A stretch of DNA of 11,438 nucleotides from Frankiaceae bacterium (GTDB taxonomy: Bacteria > Actinomycetota > Actinomycetes > JAVEEB01), in assembly GCA_030840665.1 (NCBI GenBank), contig JAVEEB010000220.1:1-11438 (forward strand), read 5' to 3'. Positions 1 through 11,438 of this stretch are shown here, in pieces. Position 1 is the stretch's first letter. Each line of letters starts with the position of its first letter. A model generated the notes under the pieces. It ran no database searches, was not told the DNA's origin, and worked only from the letters and a program-made list of their open reading frames with translations. Position numbers and translations under genes: made by a program.

Positions 1-818
1 GGGACGCCGCCGGCGAGCTCGAGCACCTCGCGGAACGTCGTACCCAACGGAATCTCGTACTGACCCGGGCGCACGACGTGACCGCTGACGCTGAACATCT
101 TCGGGCCGGGCGACTTCTCCGTGCCCATGCTCTTGAACCAGGCCGCACCGTTGCGGATGATGTACGGCACCGAGGCGATTGTCTCGACGTTGTTGACGCA
201 CGTCGGGGACGCGTAAAGCCCAGCCACAGCAGGGAAAGGCGGGCGCAGCCGCGGCTGCCCGCGGTAGCCCTCGAGCGAGTCGAGGAGCGCCGTTTCCTCG
301 CCGCAGATGTAGGCGCCCGCGCCGCGGTGCAGGGTCAGCTCGAGGTCGAAGCCGGTGCCCATGACGTTCTTGCCGAGGTAACCCTTGGCGTACGCCTCGT
401 CGATCGCGCGCTGCAACCGGCGGCCGGCGTGCACGAGCTCGCCGCGCAGGTAGATGAAGGCGTGGTTGGAGCGGATCGCGTACGACGCGATGATCATGCC
501 CTCGATCAGCCCGTGCGGGTCGATCATCATGTACGGCGCGTCCTTGCACGTGCCCGGCTCGCCCTCGTCGGCGTTGACGACGAGGTAGTGCGGCTTGCCG
601 TCACCCTGCGGGATGAAGCCCCACTTCATGCCGGTGGGAAAGCCTGCGCCGCCGCGGCCGCGCAGGCCCGAGTCCTTCACGATGGCGATCACGGCGTCCG
701 GGTCCAGGGCCAGCGCGGTGCGCGCGGCCTTGTAACCCTCGGTCGCCTCGTACGTCTTCATCGTCCACGGCTGGTCGGCGTCCCAGCGCGACATCAGCAT
801 GCGGGTCTCGGCGATCAC
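1..818 (-). CDS. nuoF: NADH-quinone oxidoreductase subunit F, 5' part (runs off the left edge)
   Basis: This is the N-terminal 272 residues of the 51-kDa subunit of complex I, which binds NADH and FMN and passes electrons to the iron-sulfur chain on the cytoplasmic arm. Visible motifs are the glycine-rich flavin/NADH site [10 protein letters not shown] (residues 54-63), [12 protein letters not shown] (82-93) and [14 protein letters not shown] (166-179). [10 protein letters not shown] (207-216) leads into the SLBB region. The C-terminal cysteines for the [4Fe-4S] cluster lie outside the window. I chose the GTG start at 818, whose TGA-sharing overlap with nuoE is 4 bases (GTGA) and which has GGAAGG 7 bases upstream. 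An in-frame ATG at 800 (MLMSRWD) is a possible alternative. It is the last visible gene of the nuo operon; nuoG would be expected next. Confidence 0.95.
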
Positions 819-1405
819 TTCTCCGCCTTCCGGGCTGCCGCGTCCGTCTGCGCCACATCCACGAAGCCCGCGAGCTCCATCTCGACCTCGCGGAACGTGC
901 GCGGCGTCTCGCCGCGGATCGGCGCCGGCACCGTGCCCGCCTGCAGCGACTTGACGATGCCGAGAGCCGACTCGGTTGTCTGGTCGTCGTAGAACTCGTA
1001 GTTGACCGTCACGACGGGCGCGAAGTCACACGCAGCAAGGCATTCCGCGTGCTCGAGCGTGATGCGGCCGTCCTCGGTCGTCTCGTTGTGGCCGACGCCC
1101 AGGTGTTCCTTCACGCACGCGTAGATCTCTTCGCCGCCGCGCAGCTGGCACGCGATGTTGGTGCACACGCTGACGAGGTAATCGCCCGTCGGGCGGCGCT
1201 TGTACATCGTGTAGAAGGTCGCGACAGCGCCGACCTCGGCCTTCGTGAGGCCGAGCTCTTCAGCGCACAACGCGACGCCGGCGGGGGTGACGTACCCCTC
1301 CTCGGCCTGCACGAGGTGCAACATCGGCAGCAACGCACTGCGCGACTTGGGGTAACGGGCGATGATCGCCCGCGCCCGCTCGCGAGTCTGCTCGGACAAG
1401 GGCAC
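815..1405 (-). CDS. nuoE: NADH-quinone oxidoreductase subunit E (24-kDa, [2Fe-2S])
   Basis: A protein of 196 residues with the thioredoxin-like fold of the 24-kDa complex I subunit, which carries cluster N1a beside the FMN in NuoF. The four cluster ligands are visible: C81 and C86 in CTNIAC, and C122 and C126 in CLAAC. The helical N-terminal part has the family sequence EEGYVTPAG, and VATFYTMY follows at residues 61-68. The start is GTG at 1405, sharing one base with the nuoD stop (TAGTG), with a GGAG about 10 bases upstream. A TTG two codons further in is a weaker alternative. The gene overlaps the nuoF start by 4 bases, so translation is probably coupled. The charged tail after residue 160 (to ARKAEK) is longer than the core fold needs. 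Confidence 0.95.
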
Positions 1406-2760
1406 TAGCGATCCACTCCACCCATGACGGGGTCGACGCTCGCGACCGCCGCGATCACGTCGGAAATCATGCTGCCCTCGGTCATCGCCGGGACTGCCTG
1501 CAGGTTGACGAACGAGGGGTCGCGCACGTGGACACGGTACGGGCGGGTGCCCCCGTCGCTGACGACGTGGTAGCCCATCTCGCCGCGCGGCGACTCGATC
1601 GGCACGTAGACCTGCCCGGCCGGCACGCGGAAACCTTCCGTGACCAGCTTGAAGTGGTGGATGAGCGCCTCCATGGAGGTGCCCATGATGTTGCGGATGT
1701 GGTCGAGCGAGTTGCCCATGCCGTCGCTGCCGAGGGCGAGCTGGGCGGGCCACGCGATCTTCTTGTCGCCGATCATCACGGGGCCGGGCCGCAGCTTGCC
1801 GAGGCACTGCTCGATGATTTTGAGCGACTCGCGCATCTCGGCGACACGGACCTCGAAGCGGGCCCAGCAGTCGCCGTTCTCGCGGGTGGGGACGTCGAAC
1901 TCGTAGGTCTCGTAGCCGCAGTACGGCTCCTGCTTTCGCAGGTCCCACGGGAGCCCGGCGGCGCGGAGCAACGGGCCGGTGACGCCGAGGGCGACGCAAC
2001 CGCTGGCGTCGATCACGCCGACGTTCTTGTTGCGGGCCGCCCAGATCGGGTTGCCGGCGAGCAGGCCCTCGTTCTCCTTGATCTTCTTCGGCATGTACAC
2101 GAGGAACTCGCGGATCTTGTCGACCGCGCCCGGGGGCAGGTCCTGGATGACGCCGCCGGGGCGGACGTACGCGTGGTTCATGCGCAATCCGGTGATGAGC
2201 TCGAGGATCTCGAGAATGACCTCGCGCTCGCGCCAGCCGTACAACATCATGCCCATCGCGCCGAGCTCGAGGCCGCCGGTCGCGAGCCAGACGAGGTGCG
2301 ACGCGATGCGCTGCAGCTCCATGACGAGGACGCGGATGACGGTCGCGCGCTCCGGGATGTCGTCGGTGATGCCGAGCAGCTTCTCGACGGCGAGGCAGTA
2401 GGCCGTCTCGTTGTACAGCGGCGCGAGGTAGTCCATCCGCGTGACGAACGTGACGCCCTGCACCCAGTTGCGGTACTCCGTCGACTTCTCGATGCCCGTG
2501 TGCAGGTAGCCGATGACGAGCCGGCACTCGGTGACCGTCTCCCCTTCGAGCTCGAGCACGAGCCGGAGCACGCCGTGGGTCGAGGGGTGCTGCGGCCCCA
2601 TGTTGACGACCATCTTCTCGGTGCCGCTGATCGCCTCGTCCGTCAGCGAGTCCCAGTCGCCGCCGACGAGCGTGAAGATGCGGCCCTCGGTCGTGTCGCG
2701 GCTCGGGGCAAACGGGTCGGTCGGGCTCGCGCCCGTCCCGGGGGTGTCTGTGGTGGTCAT
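1405..2760 (-). CDS. nuoD: NADH-quinone oxidoreductase subunit D (49-kDa, quinone-binding)
   Basis: A protein of 451 residues that with NuoB forms the quinone-reduction pocket of complex I; it descends from the large subunit of [NiFe] hydrogenases. The signature GPQHPSTHG (residues 55-63) contains a conserved pocket histidine, and [10 protein letters not shown] (109-118) carries the conserved tyrosine region. [10 protein letters not shown] and the C-terminal DPVMGGVDR are also typical. The N-terminal 45 residues are a variable extension. The ATG at 2760 overlaps the nuoC stop by 4 bases (ATGA) and has a GGAGG about 9 bases upstream. The open frame continues upstream to 3153, but that part lies inside nuoC and is not coding. 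Confidence 0.97.
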
Positions 2761-3425
2761 GCGTACGACCTCCGCTCGTCCGGCGGCGGCACGTGCGCGC
2801 CCTTGTATTCGACGTCGATGCCGCCGAGTGGATAGTCCTTGCGCTGCGGGTGCCCGATCCAGTCGTCCGGCATCTGGATCCGGGTGAGCGCGGGGTGACC
2901 GTCGAACACGATGCCGAAGAAGTCCCACGCCTCGCGCTCGTGCCAGTCGGCGGTCGGATACACCGACACCACCGACGGGATGTGCGGGTCCTCGACGGTC
3001 GTCGCGACTTCCAGCCGGAGGCGGCGACGGTAGGTCATCGACGTCAGGTGGTAGACCGCGTGCAGCCGGCGCGGCGAGTCGATGTAGTCGACACCGCTCA
3101 CGGAGCTCAGCAGCTCGAAGCGCAGCGAGGGGTCGTCGCGCATCGTGCGGCACAACTCGAGGATGTGCTCGCGCTTCACGTGCAGTGTCAGCTCGCCGCG
3201 GTCGACGACGATGCGCTCGATCGCGTCGCCGAAGCCGCCGAAGACCTCGGCCAGATGGTCGGTGGCCTCGTCGTACCAGCTCCCGTAGGGCTTGGGCGTC
3301 GACAGGTCCGCATGCACCGGCGTCGCGAGGCCGTTGAAGCCCGACGTGTCGGAGGAGCCGGACACGCCGAACATGCCGCGGCTCGGGCGCGCCGGACTCA
3401 AGGAACCGTCACCGGTCTCGCTCAT
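2757..3425 (-). CDS. nuoC: NADH-quinone oxidoreductase subunit C (30-kDa)
   Basis: A protein of 222 residues of the 30-kDa complex I subunit family, a structural subunit of the cytoplasmic arm that packs against NuoD and NuoB. The family signature is clear: [11 protein letters not shown] (163-173) followed by [10 protein letters not shown] and [16 protein letters not shown] (187-202). The first 45 residues are Gly/Ser-rich and look like an actinobacterial extension. The ATG at 3425 shares one base with the nuoB stop (TGATG). Separate nuoC and nuoD genes, rather than a fused nuoCD, are normal for actinobacteria. Confidence 0.96.
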
Positions 3426-4003
3426 CAGCGGCGCTTCTGGATCTCGAGGACCGGCAGGCCGGCACTGACGGCGGTGCCGCGGACGATCGGCTTCTGGTAC
3501 GGCGAGTCGTCCAGCTCCGTGCGGGTCAGCTTGCCCGTCACGTCGCCGGCCTGGATCTTGGCGTGCAGCTTGAGGATCGCATCGAGGAGCATCTCGGGCC
3601 GCGGGGGGCAGCCCGGCAGGTACATGTCGACGGGGACGATGTGGTCGACGCCCTGGATGATCGCGTAGTTGTTGAACATGCCGCCGCTGGAGGCGCAGAC
3701 GCCCATCGCGATGACCCACTTCGGCTCGGACATCTGGTCGTAGATCTGGCGCAGTACGGGAGCCATCTTCTGGCTCACCCGGCCGGCGACGATCATGAGG
3801 TCGGCCTGGCGCGGGGTCGCGCTGAAGCGTTCCATGCCGAAGCGCGCGATGTCGTACTTGCCGGCGCCCGTCGCCATCATCTCGATGGCACAACAGGCCA
3901 GGCCGAACGTCGCCGGCCAGACCGACGACTTGCGCGCCCAGTTCACGGCACCCGCGACGGTCGTGAGAATCACGCCGGTCGGGAGCTTCTCCTCGAGACC
4001 CAT
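3425..4003 (-). CDS. nuoB: NADH-quinone oxidoreductase subunit B (20-kDa, cluster N2)
   Basis: A protein of 192 residues that carries cluster N2, the terminal [4Fe-4S] cluster that hands electrons to menaquinone. All four expected ligands are present: the adjacent pair C37-C38 in [11 protein letters not shown]103 in [14 protein letters not shown] and C132 in [10 protein letters not shown]. The ATG at 4003 gives the family N-terminus ([11 protein letters not shown]). The gap of 39 bp from nuoA holds only a weak ribosome-binding site (AAGCGAG), so expression may depend partly on read-through from nuoA. Confidence 0.97.
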
Positions 4004-4042
4004 GTGGTGGTTGCTCGCTTCAGCCTTGGTTGACGGTGAGGA

Positions 4043-4414
4043 CTAGTCCCATTCGAGCCCGCCGCGACGCAGGACGTACACGTACGCGACGAGAACGGGG
4101 GCGACAAACAACAGCATTTCGACGAACAAGAAGATCGACGAGCTGCCCGTACGGAAGAAGGCCACGGCCCACGGGTAGAGAAAAATGATCTCGATGTCGA
4201 ACACGATGAAGAGCATCGCGGTCAGGTAGAACTTGATCGGCATGCGGCTGCCGACCGCCCGCGGTGACGGCTCGATCCCGCACTCGTACGCGTCGAGCTT
4301 GGCGCGGTTGTAACGCTTCGGGCCGACGAGGGAGTTGGCGGCGATCGACCCGACGGCGAACAGCGTCGCCAGGATGAACAGGACCACCATCGGCAGGTAG
4401 ACGTTCAGTCCCAT
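4043..4414 (-). CDS. nuoA: NADH-quinone oxidoreductase subunit A (membrane)
   Basis: A small membrane subunit of 123 residues at the junction of the peripheral and membrane arms of complex I. Three hydrophobic segments are visible, at about residues 6-26, 61-86 and 91-115. The loop motif AYECGIEP carries the conserved loop cysteine of this family, and FDIEIIFLYPWA (71-82) is the second-helix signature with its conserved acidic residues. The ATG at 4414 has a strong ribosome-binding site, GAGGAAGGAC (4419-4428 on the minus strand). It is the first nuo gene. The 62 bp between it and the menJ stop show no convincing promoter, so it is probably transcribed together with menJ. Confidence 0.96.
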   Translation of the reverse strand: MGLNVYLPMVVLFILATLFAVGSIAANSLVGPKRYNRAKLDAYECGIEPSPRAVGSRMPIKFYLTAMLFIVFDIEIIFLYPWAVAFFRTGSSSIFLFVEMLLFVAPVLVAYVYVLRRGGLEWD

Positions 4415-4476
4415 GGCTGTCCTTCCTCGAGCGTTGGGGCGTGCCAGCGGTTCAGTGTAGGTAAAGCGATCGTCGG

Positions 4477-5766
4477 CTATGCGGCCGGGGCGACCTTGGC
4501 GAGTGCGTTGATGACACGGTCGACGGCGTCGCCGCCGCGGGCGTCGGTGAGGTTGGCCATCAGCTTCAGCAGGGCCCGCATGAGGGCGGGGTGCTTCAGG
4601 CCGTGTTCGGTGCAGGCCTTCATGACCTGCGGGTGCCCGATGAGCTTCACGAACGTGTTGCCGAGGCGGTAGTAGCCGCCGTACGTGGACTTGAGGTGCG
4701 TGGAGTAGCCGGTGAGGGCGCGCTCCCTGGCCGGGCCCTCCTTGCGGGAGAGGGCCTGCACGACGGTCTCGGCGGCCAGGTAGCCGGACTCCATGGCGTA
4801 GGCGATGCCCTCCCCGTTGAACGGGTTGACCATGCCTGCGGAGTCGCCGAGGAGAAGAAGACCATCTTTGTACGCCGGCTGGCGGTTGAAGCCCATGGGC
4901 AACGCGGCGCCCTTCGCCTTCCCGGTGGCCGTCTCCTCGGTCATCTCCCAGTCGCCGGGCAGGCTCGCCACCCAGCGGTTGAGGAGATCGGGGTAGTCGG
5001 TCTTGCCGAAGGCGGCGCTGGTGTTGAGGGCGCCGAGGCCGACGTTGCAGGTGCCGTCGCCCATCGGGAAGATCCAGCCGTAGCCGGGGAGCAGGCGGCT
5101 CTCGCGCGGCTTGCCCTCCCACAGCTCGAGCCAGCCTTCGAGGTAGTTGTCGGTGGAGCGGGGGCTGCTGTAGTAGCGGCGGTAGGCGACGCCCAGCGGG
5201 CGGTCGTGTCGACGCGGGATGCCGGCGCCCAGCGCGGTGCGGGCGGAGTTGCCGTCGGCGGCGAGCACGACGGGGGCCCGGTAGTTGACCTTGTCGGCCT
5301 TGCGGTCGCCGGTGGTCTGTGCGGTGACGCCGATGACGCGGCCGGTCGTCTCGTCGTGGAGCGGGCCGAGGACGTTCGTGGACTCCTGCAGCCGGGCGCC
5401 CGCCTTCTGCGCGTGCCGGATGAGGATCTCGTCGAAGTCCATGCGGGTGCGGGTCACGCTGTAGGGCGGGTAGTTCGAGAGCTCGGGCCAGGGCAGCTCG
5501 AGGCTGATGCCCCCGCCGTACACCCGCAGGCCGTCGCTGTGCCGCCAGCCGGCCTCGACGCTCGTGTCGATGCCGAGCCGGATCAGCTGCTTGACGCCGC
5601 GGGGGGTGAGCCCGTCGCCGCAGACTTTCTCGCGGGGGAAGCTCGTCTTCTCGAGGACGAGGACGTCGAGGCCGGCCTGGGCCAGGTACGCCGCTGCGGT
5701 AGCTCCGGAGGGACCGGCTCCGACGACGATGACGTCGGCGTCGTGGTCGGCGGTGCGCTGCGGCAC
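4477..5766 (-). CDS. menJ: Geranylgeranyl reductase family FAD oxidoreductase, probable menaquinone side-chain reductase
   Basis: A flavoprotein of 429 residues. The FAD-binding features are GAGPSG (residues 16-21), the acidic end of strand 2 at E39, CGDG (49-52) and GDSAGMVNPFNGEGI (307-321), which is the second FAD motif of this family; GWIFP (230-234) is typical of the substrate domain. Relatives reduce isoprenoid double bonds in chlorophyll, archaeal lipids or quinones. In mycobacteria the homologue MenJ saturates one isoprene unit of menaquinone. Its place between menG and nuoA favours that role here, but the exact substrate is inferred. The GTG start at 5766 has GAGGAG 6 bases upstream. 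It appears to be the first gene of a Rex-controlled unit that continues into nuo. Confidence 0.88.
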   Translation of the reverse strand: MPQRTADHDADVIVVGAGPSGATAAAYLAQAGLDVLVLEKTSFPREKVCGDGLTPRGVKQLIRLGIDTSVEAGWRHSDGLRVYGGGISLELPWPELSNYPPYSVTRTRMDFDEILIRHAQKAGARLQESTNVLGPLHDETTGRVIGVTAQTTGDRKADKVNYRAPVVLAADGNSARTALGAGIPRRHDRPLGVAYRRYYSSPRSTDNYLEGWLELWEGKPRESRLLPGYGWIFPMGDGTCNVGLGALNTSAAFGKTDYPDLLNRWVASLPGDWEMTEETATGKAKGAALPMGFNRQPAYKDGLLLLGDSAGMVNPFNGEGIAYAMESGYLAAETVVQALSRKEGPARERALTGYSTHLKSTYGGYYRLGNTFVKLIGHPQVMKACTEHGLKHPALMRALLKLMANLTDARGGDAVDRVINALAKVAPAA

Positions 5767-5820
5767 GCGAGCTCCTCAGGCCATCCGGTGCGGCACCCGG
5801 CGGGCGTCGCCTCGTGCGCT

Positions 5821-5836
5821 TGTGAACACTTTCACG
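5821..5836 (-). promoter_or_regulatory. Probable Rex operator (ROP site)
   Basis: The plus strand reads TGTGAACACTTTCACG. The published Rex operator of Streptomyces is TGTGAAC-NNN-TTCACA, so only the last base differs. Rex is a repressor that leaves DNA when the NADH/NAD+ ratio rises, and it controls nuo in Streptomyces. The site lies 55 bp before the menJ start and just downstream of a candidate -10 box, where bound protein would block transcription of menJ-nuoABCDEF. The wider dyad spans 5817-5840, with 9 of 10 arm bases paired. No rex gene is in the window. Confidence 0.75.
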
Positions 5837-5851
5837 AGCGTCTCAGCGGCG

Positions 5852-5881
5852 ATGATAAGCCCTGGGCAACACCCATGCCAC
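5852..5881 (-). promoter_or_regulatory. Candidate promoter for menJ-nuo
   Basis: On the minus strand GTGGCA (5881-5876; 4 of 6 bases of TTGACA) is followed after 18 bp by TATCAT (5857-5852; 5 of 6 bases of TATAAT). Transcription would start near 5845, directly before the Rex operator. The call rests on these matches and on position, and the -35 box is weak. Confidence 0.4.
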
Positions 5882-5887
5882 GACGCG

Positions 5888-6577
5888 TCAGGGACGGGTC
5901 GCGCGGTGCAGGGCCACGACCCCGAACGTGAGGCCCCGCCATTGCACGCCGCCCCAGCCCGATTCCGCGATCCGCCGGCCGAGGGTGTCGCCGTCGGGCC
6001 AGGTCAGCATCGACTCGGTGAGGTAGCGGTAGGCGGCCGGGTTGGACGAGAACCGGCTCGCCACGGTCGGCAGCATCCGCAGCCACGTGCGGTTGCCGAA
6101 GCGCAGGATCGGCCTTGCGGGCTGGCTCGTCTCGCAGATCACCAACCGACCCCCTGGCTTCGTGACCCGCAGCATCTCCCCCAGCGCGGCATCGACGTCC
6201 GCCACGTTGCGCAGCCCGAACGAGATGGTGACGACGTCGAAGGACTCGTCGGCGAAGGGCAGCCGCAAGGCGTCGCCCGCAACGAGTGACACGACGTTTC
6301 CGTACTTGCGGCCCTGCTCGAGCATGCCCAGGGAAAAGTCTGCGGCGACGACGCGCGCGCCGGCCGACGCCAGCACCACTGAGCTGACGGCCGTCCCGGC
6401 CGCGAGGTCCAGAATTGTCATGCCTGGTTGGGGATCGACGGTCTCCATGGCCTCGCGGCGCCAGCGGGACTCGAGCCCGAACGTCATCACACGGTTCATC
6501 AGGTCGTAGCGTTTCGCGACGCCGTCGAACATCGCCGCCACCTCGTCGGGCCGGCGGTCGAGCCGGGCGCGCGTCAT
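5888..6577 (-). CDS. menG: Demethylmenaquinone methyltransferase (UbiE/MenG family)
   Basis: A class I SAM-dependent methyltransferase of 229 residues that adds the ring methyl group in the last step of menaquinone synthesis. Family signatures are MFDGVAKRYDLMNRVMTFGL (residues 16-35), SAM motif I ILDLAAGTAVSS (55-66), AADFS (78-82) with the acidic residue that would hold the SAM ribose, and FGLRNV (120-125). GTAVS in place of GTGxx is what I recall from actinobacterial MenG, so I do not read it as damage. The ATG at 6577 overlaps the mqnX stop by 4 bases and has AAGGAG 5 bases upstream. It is the last gene before the 121-bp gap that carries the menJ promoter region. Confidence 0.93.
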   Translation of the reverse strand: MTRARLDRRPDEVAAMFDGVAKRYDLMNRVMTFGLESRWRREAMETVDPQPGMTILDLAAGTAVSSVVLASAGARVVAADFSLGMLEQGRKYGNVVSLVAGDALRLPFADESFDVVTISFGLRNVADVDAALGEMLRVTKPGGRLVICETSQPARPILRFGNRTWLRMLPTVASRFSSNPAAYRYLTESMLTWPDGDTLGRRIAESGWGGVQWRGLTFGVVALHRATRP

Positions 6578-7827
6578 GAGATCTCCTTGCTGGGCAGCGA
6601 ATTGCGCGGCACGACCGCCCCGGCGAGCACCGTGACGGTGCAGCTGCCGTGCCCGGACGCGACGAGGCTTGCGTAGATGTCGTCGACGATCGGCACGTCG
6701 AACACCGCGAGGTCCGCCCGCGCCCCGACCTCGAGCCGGCCGATGTCGCGCATGCCGAGCGCGGCGGCCCCGCCGATCGTCGCGGCCTCGATCAGGCGGC
6801 GGTCGAGGTCTGGCTCGTCGTACCCCTGAGAAATCGCCAGCGCGCGCAGTGCCTGCACGTCTCCGAGGACATCGAGGTCCAGGTTGCTGGCGCTCGAGTC
6901 CGTGCCGACGGCGATCTGGTTGCCCTCCCGCAGGTACGCGGCGACCGGCGCCTCGCCCGAGTGCAGGATGGCGTTCGACCGCGGGCACAAGGCAACGGCG
7001 GTGCCCCGCTCGCGCAGCAGCGCTCGATCGGCGGCATCGACGTGGACCCCGTGGGCGATGTGCACGTCGGGCCCCAGGAGGCCCAGGGCATCGAGACGGG
7101 CCACGGGCGTCATCCCGCATCCGCGGCCGGCAAGGTCGAGCAGCAGCCCGGTCCGGTCGGCGCCGACCGCGAACGGCCCCGTGCCGCTGAACACGAACTC
7201 GCACTCGTCGACCGTCTCCGCCGCGTGGGGGTGCAGGCGCAACCCGCGCTCGCGGGCCAGCTCGCCGATGGTGCGCATGGTCTCGGAGCTGTTCGTGTAC
7301 AGGGAGTGCGGGCTCAGGCCGGCGTCCGCGGCGCCCAAGCGGGTCTCGAGTTCTGCCCGCAGTTTCGGCCAGCGGATGTCGTCCGCCCCGACCACTTCCT
7401 GGTAGCGGATCCCGACGAGCCCGGCCTCCTGCGCGGCCACCGCGGCGAAGCCGTACGTGTCGACGTCCGCGACGGCCGTCGTGCCGCTCGCCAGCACCTG
7501 CTGGACGCCGTCCCGCGCGCTGGCGAGCCACTCGTCGGTCGTCGTCGCCCGGTAGCGGGCGAAGAACAACCCGACCCACTCCGCGAAGGACACGCCGAGG
7601 GTCGCCATGTCCGCGTACGCCGTGAGCTGCAAATGCGTGTGAGCGTTGACGAGTCCGGGCGTCAGGACACCGTCGTGGCGGTGGATCGCAGCGCCGTACA
7701 GGTCCTCGATCTCTGTACGCGCGCCGACCGCGAGGATGCGCCCCTCGTCGACCGCGACGGCGCCATCCCGGATCGGGCCGGTGACGACGGGGACCACCAC
7801 AGTCGCGGCGTGTACTTCGATGGTCAC
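6574..7827 (-). CDS. mqnX: Amidohydrolase, probable aminodeoxyfutalosine deaminase
   Basis: A metal-dependent deaminase of 417 residues from the amidohydrolase superfamily (cytosine deaminase / chlorohydrolase-like group). Metal and catalytic residues are visible in order: H63 and H65 in NAHTHLQL, H201 and E204 in HPHAAET, H259 in HIAHGVH and D310 in GTDSSASN. In the futalosine pathway MqnX converts 6-amino-6-deoxyfutalosine to futalosine. The choice among deaminases of this group rests on position: it is coupled to menG and lies near mqnC. The start is GTG at 7827, overlapping the MFS stop by 4 bases (GTGA); the ribosome-binding site is weak, which fits coupled translation. Confidence 0.85.
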   Translation of the reverse strand: MTIEVHAATVVVPVVTGPIRDGAVAVDEGRILAVGARTEIEDLYGAAIHRHDGVLTPGLVNAHTHLQLTAYADMATLGVSFAEWVGLFFARYRATTTDEWLASARDGVQQVLASGTTAVADVDTYGFAAVAAQEAGLVGIRYQEVVGADDIRWPKLRAELETRLGAADAGLSPHSLYTNSSETMRTIGELARERGLRLHPHAAETVDECEFVFSGTGPFAVGADRTGLLLDLAGRGCGMTPVARLDALGLLGPDVHIAHGVHVDAADRALLRERGTAVALCPRSNAILHSGEAPVAAYLREGNQIAVGTDSSASNLDLDVLGDVQALRALAISQGYDEPDLDRRLIEAATIGGAAALGMRDIGRLEVGARADLAVFDVPIVDDIYASLVASGHGSCTVTVLAGAVVPRNSLPSKEIS

Positions 7828-9341
7828 GCGCTCATCGTCTCAGCTGCCCGTTCGGACTCCTGACCGAGGCCCGCGGGGAGCAACCACGCCGCAACGCAGG
7901 CAGCGAGGAAGGCGATCCCGGCCGCCACCCCCATCGCGACCGCGGCGCCGTCTTCGAAGGCGTTGCGCGCGGCGGCTGCCAACCCCGGGTGGTTCAGCAT
8001 GAGCGCGGTGCCGAGGCCCTCGCGCGCGCCGGGCGGCGCGTCGGCCGGCAGGTTGGCCCGGTAGCCGGTCGACACGAGGGCGCCGAGGAGCGCCACCCCC
8101 AGGGCGATGCCGATCTCCTGCACCATGTCGTTGAGCGCGGAACCGAGGCCGGCCCGCTCGACGGGGATCGCGCCGAGCAGCGCCTCGGAAGCCGGAGCGA
8201 GCGCGAGCCCCGCCCCAAAGCCGACGCCGAGGAAGGTGACGACGATCCGCGAGTAGCCGCCGCCGCGGCCGATGAGGGCGAAGTACGCGAGGCCGAGGCT
8301 CACGATGGTGAGGCCGACGAAGACGAGCACGCGCCCGCCGACGCGCCTGGTCAGCGGCTCCGACAGGACCGCGCCCACGATCACCGCGGCGACGAGCGGC
8401 AACATCCGCAGCCCGGCCGCCAACGGCGACAGGCCGAGAACGAACTGCAGCTGCTGCGTCACGAGGAAGCTCGCGCCGCCGAACGTGAACAGGAGCAGCG
8501 TCCCGGCGACGGCAGCCCCGATGAACCGCCGCTGCCCCAGGATGGCGAAGTCGAGCATGGGGTGATCCGTGCGCCGTTCCCACCAGAGGAACGCCACGCC
8601 GAAAGCGCCCGTCAAGGTGACGGCCGACAAGACGTCCGTCGAGCTCCAGCCGTGCGCGGGGGAGGAGATCACGGCGTACACGAGGCTTGTCATGAAGCCG
8701 GTGCTCAGCAGGGCGCCCACGATGTCCGCACGTCTGGCGACCGGATCCCGCGACTCCGGCAGGAGCCGGACGGCCACGACGGTCGCGACGGCGACGACCG
8801 GCACGTTGAGCAGGAAGACCGATCCCCACCAGAAGTGCTCGACGAGGACGCCGCCCAGGATCGGGCCGGCGGCCATGCCGAGGGCGCTCATGCCGCCCCA
8901 GACCGACATGGCCTTCACGCGTTCCCGCGCCGGGAACACGTTGATGAGGATCGACAAGGTACCGGGCATCAGCAGGGCGCCGCCGAGGCCGAGGAGGGCG
9001 CGCGCCGCGATGAGCCAGGACGTCGTCGGCGCGAACGCGCAGGCCAAGGACGCGACACCGAAGACGAGCAGGCCGGCCACGAAACCGCGCTTGCGGCCGT
9101 ACGTGTCGGACATCGTGCCCGACGACAGCAGCAGCCCGCCGAAAACGAGGGAGTAGGCGTCGATCACCCACTGCACCTCGGCCGTCGAGGTCTGCAGGTC
9201 GTTGGACAGGGACGGGATCGCGACGTTCAGGACGGTGTTGTCGAGAACGACCACGAACAGGCTGACGCACAGGACCCCGAGGATGACCCAGCGCCGGGGG
9301 TGGCCCTGGACGTCGTACGTGTAGCGGGTCCCGTGTGTCAC
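7824..9341 (-). CDS. MFS transporter, DHA2 (EmrB/QacA-like) family
   Basis: A membrane protein of 505 residues with the hydrophobic pattern of a 14-helix drug:proton antiporter. Motif D1 is VLDNTVLNVAIPSL (residues 32-45), loop motif A is SGTMSDTYGRKRG (74-86), and the antiporter motif C region is GMAAGPILGG (155-164). Relatives export drugs, dyes or metabolites; the substrate cannot be read from the sequence. The start is set at GTG 9341, with GGGGAC 9 bases upstream and a short basic N-terminus before helix 1. The open frame runs on to 9836, but that extension lies antisense to the DUF3224 gene and lacks membrane character. It is the first gene of the unit with mqnX and menG and is translationally coupled to mqnX. 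Confidence 0.9.
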   Translation of the reverse strand: MTHGTRYTYDVQGHPRRWVILGVLCVSLFVVVLDNTVLNVAIPSLSNDLQTSTAEVQWVIDAYSLVFGGLLLSSGTMSDTYGRKRGFVAGLLVFGVASLACAFAPTTSWLIAARALLGLGGALLMPGTLSILINVFPARERVKAMSVWGGMSALGMAAGPILGGVLVEHFWWGSVFLLNVPVVAVATVVAVRLLPESRDPVARRADIVGALLSTGFMTSLVYAVISSPAHGWSSTDVLSAVTLTGAFGVAFLWWERRTDHPMLDFAILGQRRFIGAAVAGTLLLFTFGGASFLVTQQLQFVLGLSPLAAGLRMLPLVAAVIVGAVLSEPLTRRVGGRVLVFVGLTIVSLGLAYFALIGRGGGYSRIVVTFLGVGFGAGLALAPASEALLGAIPVERAGLGSALNDMVQEIGIALGVALLGALVSTGYRANLPADAPPGAREGLGTALMLNHPGLAAAARNAFEDGAAVAMGVAAGIAFLAACVAAWLLPAGLGQESERAAETMSA

Positions 9342-9398
9342 CGTGAGAGTGTCCCCTATCCCGGGCGACGTTCCGCCTGTACGAAAGGACCCGCTCCG

Positions 9399-9791
9399 AT
9401 GCCGACCGCGACCGGATCGTTCACCGTCGACAGCTTCGACGCGACGCCCCTCGACGGGGACGGTGGGCTGCTGGCCCATATCGAGATCGGCAAGACGTTC
9501 AGTGGGGGTCTCACCGGGACGTCCACGGTCTACATGACGTCCGCGCGCACGGCGGTCGACGACTCGGCGGGCTACGTGGCGATCGAGCGGGTCGTGGGCG
9601 TGGTGGACGACCTGGACGGGACGTTCGTGCTGCAGCACTCCGGCGTCTCCAACCGCGGGGTCCAGAGCCTGACGATGATGGTGGTGCCGGACTCCGGGAC
9701 CGGCTCGCTGGAGGGCCTGGCCGGGGAGCTGGCGATTGTGGCCGACCTGCCGGGCGGCCACGAGTACGCGTTCACCTACACGATCGGCTAG
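9399..9791 (+). CDS. DUF3224 family protein
   Basis: A cytosolic protein of 130 residues with no signal peptide. It matches the DUF3224 pattern (allene-oxide-cyclase-like barrel): GSFTVDSFDATPLD at the start, GKTFSGGLTGTSTVYM, then VAIERVVG, FVLQHSG, VVPDSGTGSLEGLAGE and a C-terminal HEYAFTYTIG. The family is widespread in actinobacteria and has no established role that I know of. The ATG at 9399 has GAAAGGAC 8 bases upstream. It is divergent from the MFS gene across a gap of 57 bp, in which I found no clear promoter boxes. Its stop lies 37 bp before the first large palindrome. Confidence 0.85.
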   Translation: MPTATGSFTVDSFDATPLDGDGGLLAHIEIGKTFSGGLTGTSTVYMTSARTAVDDSAGYVAIERVVGVVDDLDGTFVLQHSGVSNRGVQSLTMMVVPDSGTGSLEGLAGELAIVADLPGGHEYAFTYTIG

Positions 9792-9821
9792 CCGGTCTGC
9801 GGCCGGACCGCCGCCTAACTT

Positions 9822-9869
9822 CGTGCGCCACGACAAATGTCGTCACATGTGACGACATTTGTCGTGAGC
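9822..9869. repeat. 48-bp repeat, copy 1, with a perfect 38-bp palindrome (9829-9866)
   Basis: The left palindrome arm is CACGACAAATGTCGTCACA (9829-9847), and 9848-9866 is its exact reverse complement. Each half contains a smaller dyad, ACGACA-N2-TGTCGT, at 9830-9843 and 9852-9865, with centres 22 bp apart. The palindrome has asymmetric flanks, CGTGCGC on the left and AGC on the right, which recur at copy 2 in the same orientation. It lies between DUF3224 and the DUF559 gene. Possible roles are operator, recombination site, dispersed genomic repeat or U-tract-less terminator. Confidence 0.95.
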
Positions 9870-9926
9870 GACGTGTCCGCGAGCGACGTGTCCGCGAGCG
9901 ACGTGTCCACGAGCGACGTGTCCGCG
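9867..9926. repeat. Four 15-bp tandem repeats
   Basis: The unit AGCGACGTGTCCGCG occurs four times without gaps (9867, 9882, 9897 and 9912), with one base changed in the third copy (CCACG). The array begins at the edge of the palindrome and ends about 50 bp before the DUF559 start codon. It could arise by slippage or be a set of binding sites. The frames across it would encode repeats such as SDVSA, but no gene is supported there. The rest of 9927-9978 holds only CTGTGGACAG (9931-9940), a small dyad. Confidence 0.9.
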
Positions 9927-9978
9927 AGCCCTGTGGACAGACGAGCCGCGGTGAGCCGGGACACGCCAGGCTCAACGG

Positions 9979-10860
9979 GTGGATGTCGACTTCGACCGAG
10001 AGTGGCAGTCCGATGTCCTGACCCGCCAACAGCTCCGCGAGGCCGGGATCAGCCATGACGCCGTCCGCAGCAAGGTGCGGGCAGGTAGGTGGCAAGCCGT
10101 GGGCAGCGTGGTGGTTCTGCACAACGGGCCCCTGACCGAGACGCAGACCCTCTGGTGCGCGGTGCTCGACCAACCTCAGCCCAGCGCACTGGCCGGAATC
10201 ACCGCAGCGATCGCCTATGGGTTGCGCACCAAGCCTCGCACCGAGATTCATGTCGCGATTCCGATTGGCGCGCGTCGACGGCCTCGGCCTGGTGTCGTCA
10301 CGCACCGAGTCGCCGATAGCCGCCCGGCTTCTGCACCCGGCGTTTCGCGGGTCTCCGCGCCTCGCGCCATCGTGCAGGCCGCGCTTTGGGAACCAGACCC
10401 GTCAGTTGCCGCAGGCCTGTTCATCGCAGGCTTCCAGCAGCGCCTGGTGAAGCCCAAACCGGTGACGCGAGAACTCGACGCGTCGCGCAGAAGCTCACGT
10501 ATCGATCTATTGAGGGGACTGATGGACGACGTTGCCAAGGAGGTCGGTTCGCTGGCTGAGGTCGAGTTTCTCCGGCTTGCCAAGCGCGCCGGGCTGCCGG
10601 TGCCGGTCTGCCAGGCATTGCGACGCGAGTCCGGTGGCAAGGCTCGCTACCTCGACTTCGATTTCGGTCCCTTCGCGGTCGAGGTCGACGGGCCGCTCCA
10701 TTGGCAGGACGGCGTGGACGCCCACAACAAGCGCCGGAATGCCCTGTCCCGGCAGCGCCAAGCTGTCCTGCACTTCACGACCATGGCGGTGTGGACGGAC
10801 GCGGACTATGTCGTGAGCGAGCTTCGTGGGATGTGGCGGGACCTGCACGGAGCCGTTTAA
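9979..10860 (+). CDS. AbiEi-like winged-helix protein with C-terminal DUF559 nuclease domain
   Basis: A protein of 293 residues with two parts. The N-terminal part (about 10-45, with LTRQQLREAGISHDAVRSKV and RAGRWQAVG) looks like the winged-helix domain of AbiEi-type antitoxins, and about 55-165 is the region usual in that family. The C-terminal part (about 190-293) resembles DUF559, a Vsr-like endonuclease fold: E194 and E196 in SLAEVEFL, D226 and D228 in YLDFDFG, then VEVDGPLHW (234-242), a later R253 and VLHFTTMAVWTDADYV. These residues could form a metal-dependent nuclease site, though activity is untested. No partner AbiEii-type toxin (nucleotidyltransferase) is adjacent. The GTG start at 9979 has only a weak AGG upstream. 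The gene lies between two palindromic repeats in the opposite direction to mqnC. Confidence 0.8.
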   Translation: MDVDFDREWQSDVLTRQQLREAGISHDAVRSKVRAGRWQAVGSVVVLHNGPLTETQTLWCAVLDQPQPSALAGITAAIAYGLRTKPRTEIHVAIPIGARRRPRPGVVTHRVADSRPASAPGVSRVSAPRAIVQAALWEPDPSVAAGLFIAGFQQRLVKPKPVTRELDASRRSSRIDLLRGLMDDVAKEVGSLAEVEFLRLAKRAGLPVPVCQALRRESGGKARYLDFDFGPFAVEVDGPLHWQDGVDAHNKRRNALSRQRQAVLHFTTMAVWTDADYVVSELRGMWRDLHGAV

Positions 10861-10870
10861 GGCTCCGCGA

Positions 10871-10918
10871 CGTGCGCCACGACAAATGTCGTCACATCTG
10901 ACGACATTTGTCGTGAGC
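10871..10918. repeat. 48-bp repeat, copy 2, with a near-perfect 38-bp palindrome (10878-10915)
   Basis: This is identical to copy 1 over 48 bases except for C instead of G at 10898, which breaks the central pairing and leaves 17-bp arms around the tetranucleotide CATC. The flanks CGTGCGC and AGC and the two inner dyads (10879-10892 and 10901-10914) are retained. It lies 17 bp after the DUF559 stop and 65 bp from the end of convergent mqnC. The two copies are direct repeats 1049 bp apart and enclose exactly one gene. Confidence 0.95.
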
Positions 10919-10936
10919 CAGCGGTTAGGCAGTCGA

Positions 10937-10979
10937 GGCGGGCGGCGGGGGCGGCGGGGTGGTCGGCGGGGGCGGTGGG
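10937..10979. other. G-rich low-complexity tract between convergent genes
   Basis: The plus strand has five runs of three or more G (10940-10942, 10947-10951, 10956-10959, 10968-10972 and 10977-10979) separated by short CGGC-like loops. One loop is 8 bases, so the tract is just outside the usual G-quadruplex pattern. It ends at the mqnC stop codon and would be C-rich in mqnC mRNA. It may be chance in GC-rich DNA. Confidence 0.5.
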
Positions 10980-11438
10980 CTAGGCCGAGGCGGGGGCGGC
11001 GGCCTGCACCGTCGGCATCGGCAGGGGCGACGTCGTCCCAGCCGCGGCCGCGCTCGACTCCGGCGAACCCGTCAGCGTCGAACTGAAGTGCGAGACCACG
11101 AGGTCGTCCACCGGGTCGTTCGCGGGGTCGGAATGGACGACGAGGTGGTTGTACAGCGTGTCGCGCTGGGCTGGCGTACGGCCGGCGGTGCGGATCATGT
11201 GGATCAGCTCCGTGCGGTTGGTGCGGTGGCGGGCACCGGCGGAGGACACCACGTTCTCCTCCAGCATCACCGAGCCGAGGTCGTCCGCGCCGTAGTGCAG
11301 CGTCAGCTGGCCGACTTCCTTGCCGACGGTCAGCCACGAGCCCTGCAAGTGGACGACGTTGTCGAAGAACAGCCGGGCGACCGCCACGAGCCGCAAATAT
11401 TCAATGAGGGTTGCCTGGGTGCGGCCCTTGAGGTGGTT
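10980..11438 (-). CDS. mqnC: Cyclic dehypoxanthinyl futalosine synthase, C-terminal part (runs off the right edge)
   Basis: This is the last 152 residues of a radical-SAM enzyme of the futalosine pathway. MqnC cyclises dehypoxanthinyl futalosine on the way to menaquinone. The C-terminal domain motifs are visible: EYLRLVAVARLFFDNVVHLQ, then WLTVGKEVGQLTLHYGADDLGSVMLEENVVSSAGA broken across residues 35-69, and IRTAGRTPAQRDTLY. MLEENVVS separates MqnC from its relative MqnE. The [4Fe-4S] CxxxCxxC motif is upstream, outside the window. After VVSHFSSTL the protein ends in about 30 Ala/Ser/Pro-rich residues, probably a disordered tail. It stops with TAG next to a G-rich tract and converges on the DUF559 gene. 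Confidence 0.92.
   Translation of the reverse strand, partial: NHLKGRTQATLIEYLRLVAVARLFFDNVVHLQGSWLTVGKEVGQLTLHYGADDLGSVMLEENVVSSAGARHRTNRTELIHMIRTAGRTPAQRDTLYNHLVVHSDPANDPVDDLVVSHFSSTLTGSPESSAAAAGTTSPLPMPTVQAAAPASA

Follow-up and report, generated by a model that had tools for sequence, protein, structure and literature searches.

The spread of palindromic repeats is understood, in part, for families linked to a RAYT (TnpA_REP) transposase; in a 2013 survey of repetitive extragenic palindromes (REPs), no enzyme could be assigned to the CGTC families (PMC3733652). That survey states that CGTC REPs “apparently lack a dedicated transposase” and names Azospirillum lipoferum, Sinorhizobium meliloti, Caulobacter crescentus, and Neisseriae among their hosts. 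RAYT proteins were assayed on single-stranded hairpin substrates in another study (PMC8266576), and a third links Caulobacter VsrA, a DUF559 Vsr-like protein, to DNA damage in the absence of a methyltransferase (PMC12907096). Here, we analyzed an 11,438-bp stretch of a Frankiaceae bacterium genome (GCA_030840665.1, here G000; contig JAVEEB010000220.1, positions 1 to 11,438; hereafter the window), in which a single gene for an AbiEi/DUF559 nuclease lies between two palindromic repeats. We consider it probable, with considerable room for doubt, that this locus is a unit resembling a REPtron (RAYT gene plus REPs): a nuclease gene between two copies of a palindrome recognized by a PD-(D/E)XK nuclease in the place of RAYT.

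Nuclease gene and flanking palindromes

The two direct repeats that an earlier note had described around one gene were borne out (Table 1): each is 48 bp long, and they are equal at 47 of 48 bases, with one difference. Both are built on a 38-bp palindrome, as also claimed, with shared asymmetric flanks (CGTGCGC on the left, GAGC on the right); the upstream core is perfect and the downstream core pairs at 36 of 38 positions. The two cores were the only palindromes in the window with exact arms of at least 12 and a loop of at most 10, and, leaving aside a 15-bp tandem array (GAGCGACGTGTCCGC-like unit, 9863 to 9937) between the upstream palindrome and the gene, none of the other direct-repeat families displayed for it was as long or exceeded 89% similarity. 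Judged by eye, the ends of the 48-bp repeats carry no GTAG-type foot. The gene begins with GTG, 109 bp past the upstream repeat, and ends 10 bp short of the downstream repeat.

The encoded protein is predicted to consist of an AbiEi-like DNA-binding part (residues 1 to 186) fused to a DUF559/Vsr-type nuclease domain (residues 189 to 293). Pfam returned AbiEi and DUF559 only, both under their cut-offs (DUF559, PF04480, scored 13.7 bits versus a curated cut-off of 20.6). The identity proposed earlier, including a DNA-binding-type N-terminal part, is nonetheless backed by DUF559 matches at an E value of 0.01 in 12 of 16 aligned relatives, by PADLOC AbiEi models (E value of 1e-12), and by a predicted fold that agrees with both parts. 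In fold searches, the predicted catalytic domain matched the type of the Vsr-like homing endonuclease I-Bth0305I, of the EDxHD family; no solved structure covered the whole protein, which is not proof of a new fold. An NCBIfam search gave nothing. Relatives at 78% and 63% identity (P0002 and P0003) are encoded on metagenome contigs. Phage or plasmid origin was considered and rejected: a plasmid search with the protein gave no match, a phage search gave one distant match (35% identity, 78% covered), and the exact palindrome core was found in no viral contig.

Flanking repeats across the nuclease family

Across the family, the nuclease is linked to cognate flanking repeats. Homologues (E value of at most 1e-10) were present in 105 of 296 genomes of the class, G000 counted. 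From a selection of the listed places, 100 loci with a tblastn match were assembled (30 including the window, 31 named, and 39 further, mostly on long contigs); 90 remained after removal of five duplicates, two loci with no stop codon (L042 and L068), one with a short flank (L045), and two of odd length (L069 and L089). The 400 bp before each gene were compared with the 400 bp after it, in direct or inverted orientation. At a local score of at least 18, two-sided repeats occurred at 62 of the 90 Actinomycetota loci, the window included, versus 9 of 702 control intervals shifted along the same loci and 2 of 123 neighboring genes; at a score of 25, the counts were 51 of 90 versus 1 of 702 and 0 of 123. 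Many of the matching repeats are palindromic. The score misses some cases, as locus L030 (G227) was counted negative despite exact palindromes on both sides. The earlier note had asked whether such repeats surround other genes of the family; the relatives do carry flanking repeats of their own.

Positive loci were spread over the whole protein tree, with one Micromonosporaceae group mostly negative. The repeat sequences vary between loci, and their similarity between genomes tracks protein identity (r of 0.365 versus a highest value of 0.105 in 2,000 permutations; 54 of the 62 positives were used, the 8 with a repeat longer than 110 bp being left out). In 12 pairs of loci from the same genome, the repeats were unlike. 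At two nuclease genes (L072 and L078), the inverted repeats on either side measure about 190 to 260 bp, far longer than elsewhere. Nucleases of distant clades (L036, L038, L073, and L085 versus L048 and L051) adjoin the same conserved downstream neighbor.

Dispersed palindromes in relatives

Two palindrome families show REP-like dispersal in relatives of G000 without a detected Y1 transposase: their members are nearly always 40 bp long, mostly intergenic, and near gene ends. The first, defined as GTCATACG...CGTATGAC with 12 to 42 free bases between, had 25 copies in G294, 16 in G062, and 14 each in G218 and G145, all of 40 bp among the matches listed; the reversed control had none in 14 genomes. 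It occurred in 17 of the 296 class genomes and in at least 3 copies in 8, all of family f26, and single matches outside f26 often differ in length. A nuclease match was present in 7 of these 8 genomes versus 98 of the 288 others (Fisher P of 0.003, uncorrected for kinship); G135 had three copies yet no nuclease match. Copies within 250 bp of a nuclease gene numbered 3 of 25 in G294, 3 of 14 in G145, 2 of 3 in G227, and 1 of 16 in G062, against a chance expectation of about 0.001 to 0.008; among the matches listed, there were none in G218 (0/14), G044 (0/3), G175 (0/4), G286 (0/1), or G077 (0/1). The second family, GTCCTGCA...TGCAGGAC, reached 35, 30, and 9 copies in the three genomes of genus g65 with the cognate nuclease; two congeners without the nuclease at that site had 7 and 11, some of other lengths. 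In 13 other genomes there was 0 or 1 copy, and reversed controls had 0 to 2.

What disperses in these relatives is mainly the palindrome alone. Forty loci around GTCATACG copies at a distance from any known nuclease gene gave no reliable nuclease match within 2.5 kb; the one match (L136) came from query L069, whose 765-amino-acid open reading frame (ORF) was judged to be mis-called. Copies elsewhere with no gene had been named in the earlier note as grounds for calling the element a generic dispersed repeat, and they do occur in relatives; because they occur alongside a strong link to the gene, they fit the REP/REPtron pattern rather than a generic repeat. Generic intergenic hairpins, that is, terminators or unrelated repeats lying beside the gene by chance, would explain the many sites with no gene and are common near gene ends. 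They would account neither for the excess of two-sided matching over the controls given above, on which a generic repeat was dismissed, nor for the tracking of protein relatedness or the enrichment at the gene in four genomes, and we regard this explanation as very improbable. A RAYT as hidden driver was also rejected: the Y1 transposase (PF01797) was found in none of 11 genomes tested, G000 included. By eye, no GTAG foot was seen at the ends of either dispersed family.

G000 itself has the nuclease gene with its two flanking palindrome copies and no detected dispersed copies. In this assembly (2.77 Mb in 503 contigs, 78% complete), the 36-bp core (at most 3 mismatches) and the half-palindrome ACGACANNTGTCGT matched solely the two window sites, and 59 further class genomes gave no match to the core. 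A looser, end-only pattern matched two other places, as against 2 matches for its reversed control; one, counted twice, was a terminator-like hairpin and the other an unrelated match, and by eye neither is the window repeat. A second nuclease homologue (31% identity) lies at a contig edge in G000 (C298:3-599, L109), with no palindrome having arms of at least 9 in the first 1,600 bases.

The placement and form of the copies bear on whether the palindromes are operators, with the AbiEi-like part repressing its own gene through both copies, perhaps by looping 1 kb, and the dispersed copies forming a regulon. Within each half-site of the 40-mers, two short blocks are conserved at constant spacing. 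Pairing inside the 40-mers was not above that of shuffled sequences in G062 (0.619 versus a shuffled mean of 0.670), G145 (0.582 versus 0.604), G218 (four sequences; 0.575 versus 0.582), or G225 (0.597 versus 0.628), on which an RNA or single-strand hairpin was rejected as a conserved feature. In G294, it was raised (0.760 versus 0.706, equal to the maximum of 1,000 shuffles), so a hairpin role may hold there. Because the half-site blocks are kept at fixed spacing without internal covariation, we read the 40-mer as a likely symmetric duplex site for a protein dimer. Operators would fit these fixed, symmetric 40-bp sites with their conserved half-sites and, in G062 and G225, no compensatory internal pairing, and AbiEi folds are DNA-binding regulators. 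The locations of the copies between genes speak against a regulon: by a simple home-made gene caller, the 54 GTCATACG copies in the 40 loci were 22 convergent, 23 tandem, and 7 inside a called ORF, with only 2 divergent versus 32 of 240 random intergenic positions (1,343 of 1,600 random positions fell inside ORFs). Among 22 GTCCTGCA copies, convergent genes surround 8 and tandem genes 9; another 4 fall inside an ORF, and the last is at an edge. Clusters of up to seven copies also speak against operators. The near-identical copy past the stop codon in the window and a copied 40-mer with unrelated flanks, described below, would be left unexplained, and we consider the operator explanation unlikely. 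In the largest cluster (L147, G062), seven GTCATACG palindromes with at most 3 mismatches are spaced 52 to 110 bp apart.

The copied 40-mer was found, identical, at two places in G225, where the match extends over 71 bp at 96% and the remaining flanks are unrelated. At one of these sites, occupied by a GTCCTGCA repeat in G225, four congeners retain the neighboring genes and lack the repeat (at most 3 end mismatches); two of the four have another palindrome there, with GTGATCGT-like ends (L246 and L249, in G101 and G182). The nuclease gene is often at an orthologous position in several species. The g65 nuclease is absent from its site in two of five genomes, which have other sequence there; gain and loss are not distinguished.

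The REPtron-like unit that we favor could act as follows. Dimers of the AbiEi-like part would bind the double-stranded palindrome, and the Vsr/homing-endonuclease-like domain would nick or cut at or beside it; repair of the break would then copy the palindrome to new intergenic sites and, more rarely, might copy the whole palindrome-gene-palindrome unit. That the nuclease recognizes, cleaves, and copies the palindrome is what we infer from the associations above.

DUF559 genes beyond Actinomycetota

A short DUF559 query retrieved 43 plasmid records, with loci from Proteobacteria, Deinococcota, and Cyanobacteriota. Two-sided repeats (score of at least 18) occurred at 9 of 20 loci taken from these records (gene starts of six unannotated loci were set by script) versus 5 of 339 control intervals; a tenth locus (L225, score of 23) was positive only with a shorter gene start. 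Among the repeats were CCCTCTCCC...GGGAGAGGG palindromes. Counted in 8 of 14 records, this pattern had 32 copies on an Azospirillum lipoferum plasmid, 28 on an S. meliloti record, three of them no more than 150 bp from the DUF559 gene, and 37 in A. brasilense, where the one DUF559 gene inspected has no such flanks; three others had 12, 3, and 1 and two had none, and the reversed control gave 0. Two DUF559 genes on Sphingomonas plasmids are embedded in operons, L231 between sufB and sufC and L232 among transhydrogenase genes, with no flanking repeats by the two-sided score. On Deinococcus plasmids of four species (L227, L228, L235, and L237), a DUF559 gene on the opposite strand sits in hpa clusters with three different neighbor pairs.

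In Sinorhizobium, a unit of 114-bp inverted repeat, DUF559 gene, and inverted repeat separates two genes that adjoin each other directly in Shinella. The gene is a distant DUF559 relative, and the difference is not polarized as gain or loss; one side of the S. meliloti copy also bears an insertion sequence (IS) element. In the S. meliloti record, the repeat stretch of this unit occurs at 23 places; it presumably resembles the rhizobial RIME elements. This difference and the Deinococcus arrangement speak for a single-gene transposon, in which the palindromes would be the ends and palindrome-gene-palindrome would move as one unit. We find this quite unlikely for the window, given the single copy in G000, the same-genome paralogues that differ in both sequence and repeats, the orthologous positions kept between species, and the dispersed copies, mostly without the gene. 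The earlier suggestion of one moving unit thus survives in part: gene and repeats belong together across the family, but the window unit has no second copy or empty site that we could find, in a search of relatives that include no genome of the same family. The only orthologous site at which a complete unit was seen to be missing is the one in Shinella.

Neighborhood of the unit

Six of eight neighboring stretches in the window match Pfam, and two give nothing. The matches are DUF3224, the CofH/MqnC C terminus, the major facilitator superfamily (MFS), an amidohydrolase, the 20-kDa subunit of NADH dehydrogenase, and an FAD-binding protein with a weak geranylgeranyl-reductase match. The locus had been described as one of respiration genes, which is only partly right because these neighbors are of mixed kind, the NADH dehydrogenase subunit among them. 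DUF3224 and CofH/MqnC are the immediate neighbors, and no AbiEii nucleotidyltransferase gene was seen adjoining the nuclease gene.

Table 1. Features of the nuclease unit in the window
Feature	Position	Strand	Basis
GCCTAAC directly outside upstream repeat, inverted partner of 10924-10930	9813..9819		
Upstream 48-bp repeat, perfect 38-bp palindrome core 9829-9866	9822..9869		Repeat and palindrome comparison
293-aa gene, predicted AbiEi-like part plus DUF559/Vsr-type PD-(D/E)XK domain	9979..10860	+	Profiles, predicted fold
Downstream 48-bp repeat, core 10878-10915, 36/38 pairing	10871..10918		Repeat and palindrome comparison
GTTAGGC directly outside downstream repeat, inverted partner of 9813-9819	10924..10930		

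The 7-mers outside the repeats resemble integron core sites. An integron-like cassette was rejected, as the layout with the pair outside both repeats is confined to the window (L009) among 90 loci; L017 and L108 have 7-mers of this type in other arrangements.

Comparison with known systems

The window protein shares an AbiEi-type DNA-binding part, as judged from predicted fold and PADLOC, with the AbiEi antitoxin of the AbiE type IV toxin-antitoxin system (PDB 6y8q). It differs in being fused to a nuclease domain, and the unit is not an AbiE pair because the AbiEii partner is missing alongside. Compared with the Vsr-like homing endonuclease I-Bth0305I (PDB 3r3p), the window gene is free-standing between two palindromes and has the AbiEi part. 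Caulobacter VsrA has in common the DUF559 nuclease domain, there with an experimental sign of DNA damage; it is read as a mismatch repair protein, and that paper contains no word starting with “palindrom” (PMC12907096). Searches of the open-access literature, judged by title and start of abstract, turned up no paper connecting DUF559, AbiEi, or Vsr genes with flanking palindromes; earlier reports elsewhere are possible.

The CGTC REPs (PMC3733652) are likewise palindromic, dispersed, and without RAYT pairing. The host genera named above have DUF559 genes, by our own searches or, for Caulobacter, by report (PMC12907096).

REPtrons (PMC6006769, PMC8266576, PMC3733652) come closest: a single nuclease-type gene is flanked by short palindromes, and several families have distinct cognate palindromes, with dispersed intergenic copies and clusters. 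A gene flanked by palindromes of one family was found in the window and in its gene family; dispersed copies in the same genome were found in several relatives and not in the 78%-complete G000. In place of an HUH Y1 transposase, the window gene encodes a PD-(D/E)XK DUF559 nuclease that carries an AbiEi part, and because the HUH enzyme that defines REPtrons is missing the unit is not a member of the REPtron family; it also differs in that no GTAG foot was seen and in that the 40-bp palindromes of two families mostly lack compensatory internal pairing.

Together, the flanking and the dispersed palindromes suggest an undescribed kind of palindrome-spreading system without the known enzyme. More tentatively, in a generalization that we rate as somewhat short of probable, DUF559/Vsr-type PD-(D/E)XK nucleases may form a second class of palindrome-spreading enzyme beside the RAYTs, in at least four phyla (Actinomycetota, Pseudomonadota, Deinococcota, and Cyanobacteriota), whose substrate would be the palindrome in duplex form instead of a single-stranded hairpin, and may be the missing partner of palindromic repeats with no known transposase. 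If so, an orphan nuclease domain and an orphan repeat class would explain each other, and genes annotated as very-short-patch-repair endonucleases would gain an alternative role to mismatch repair.
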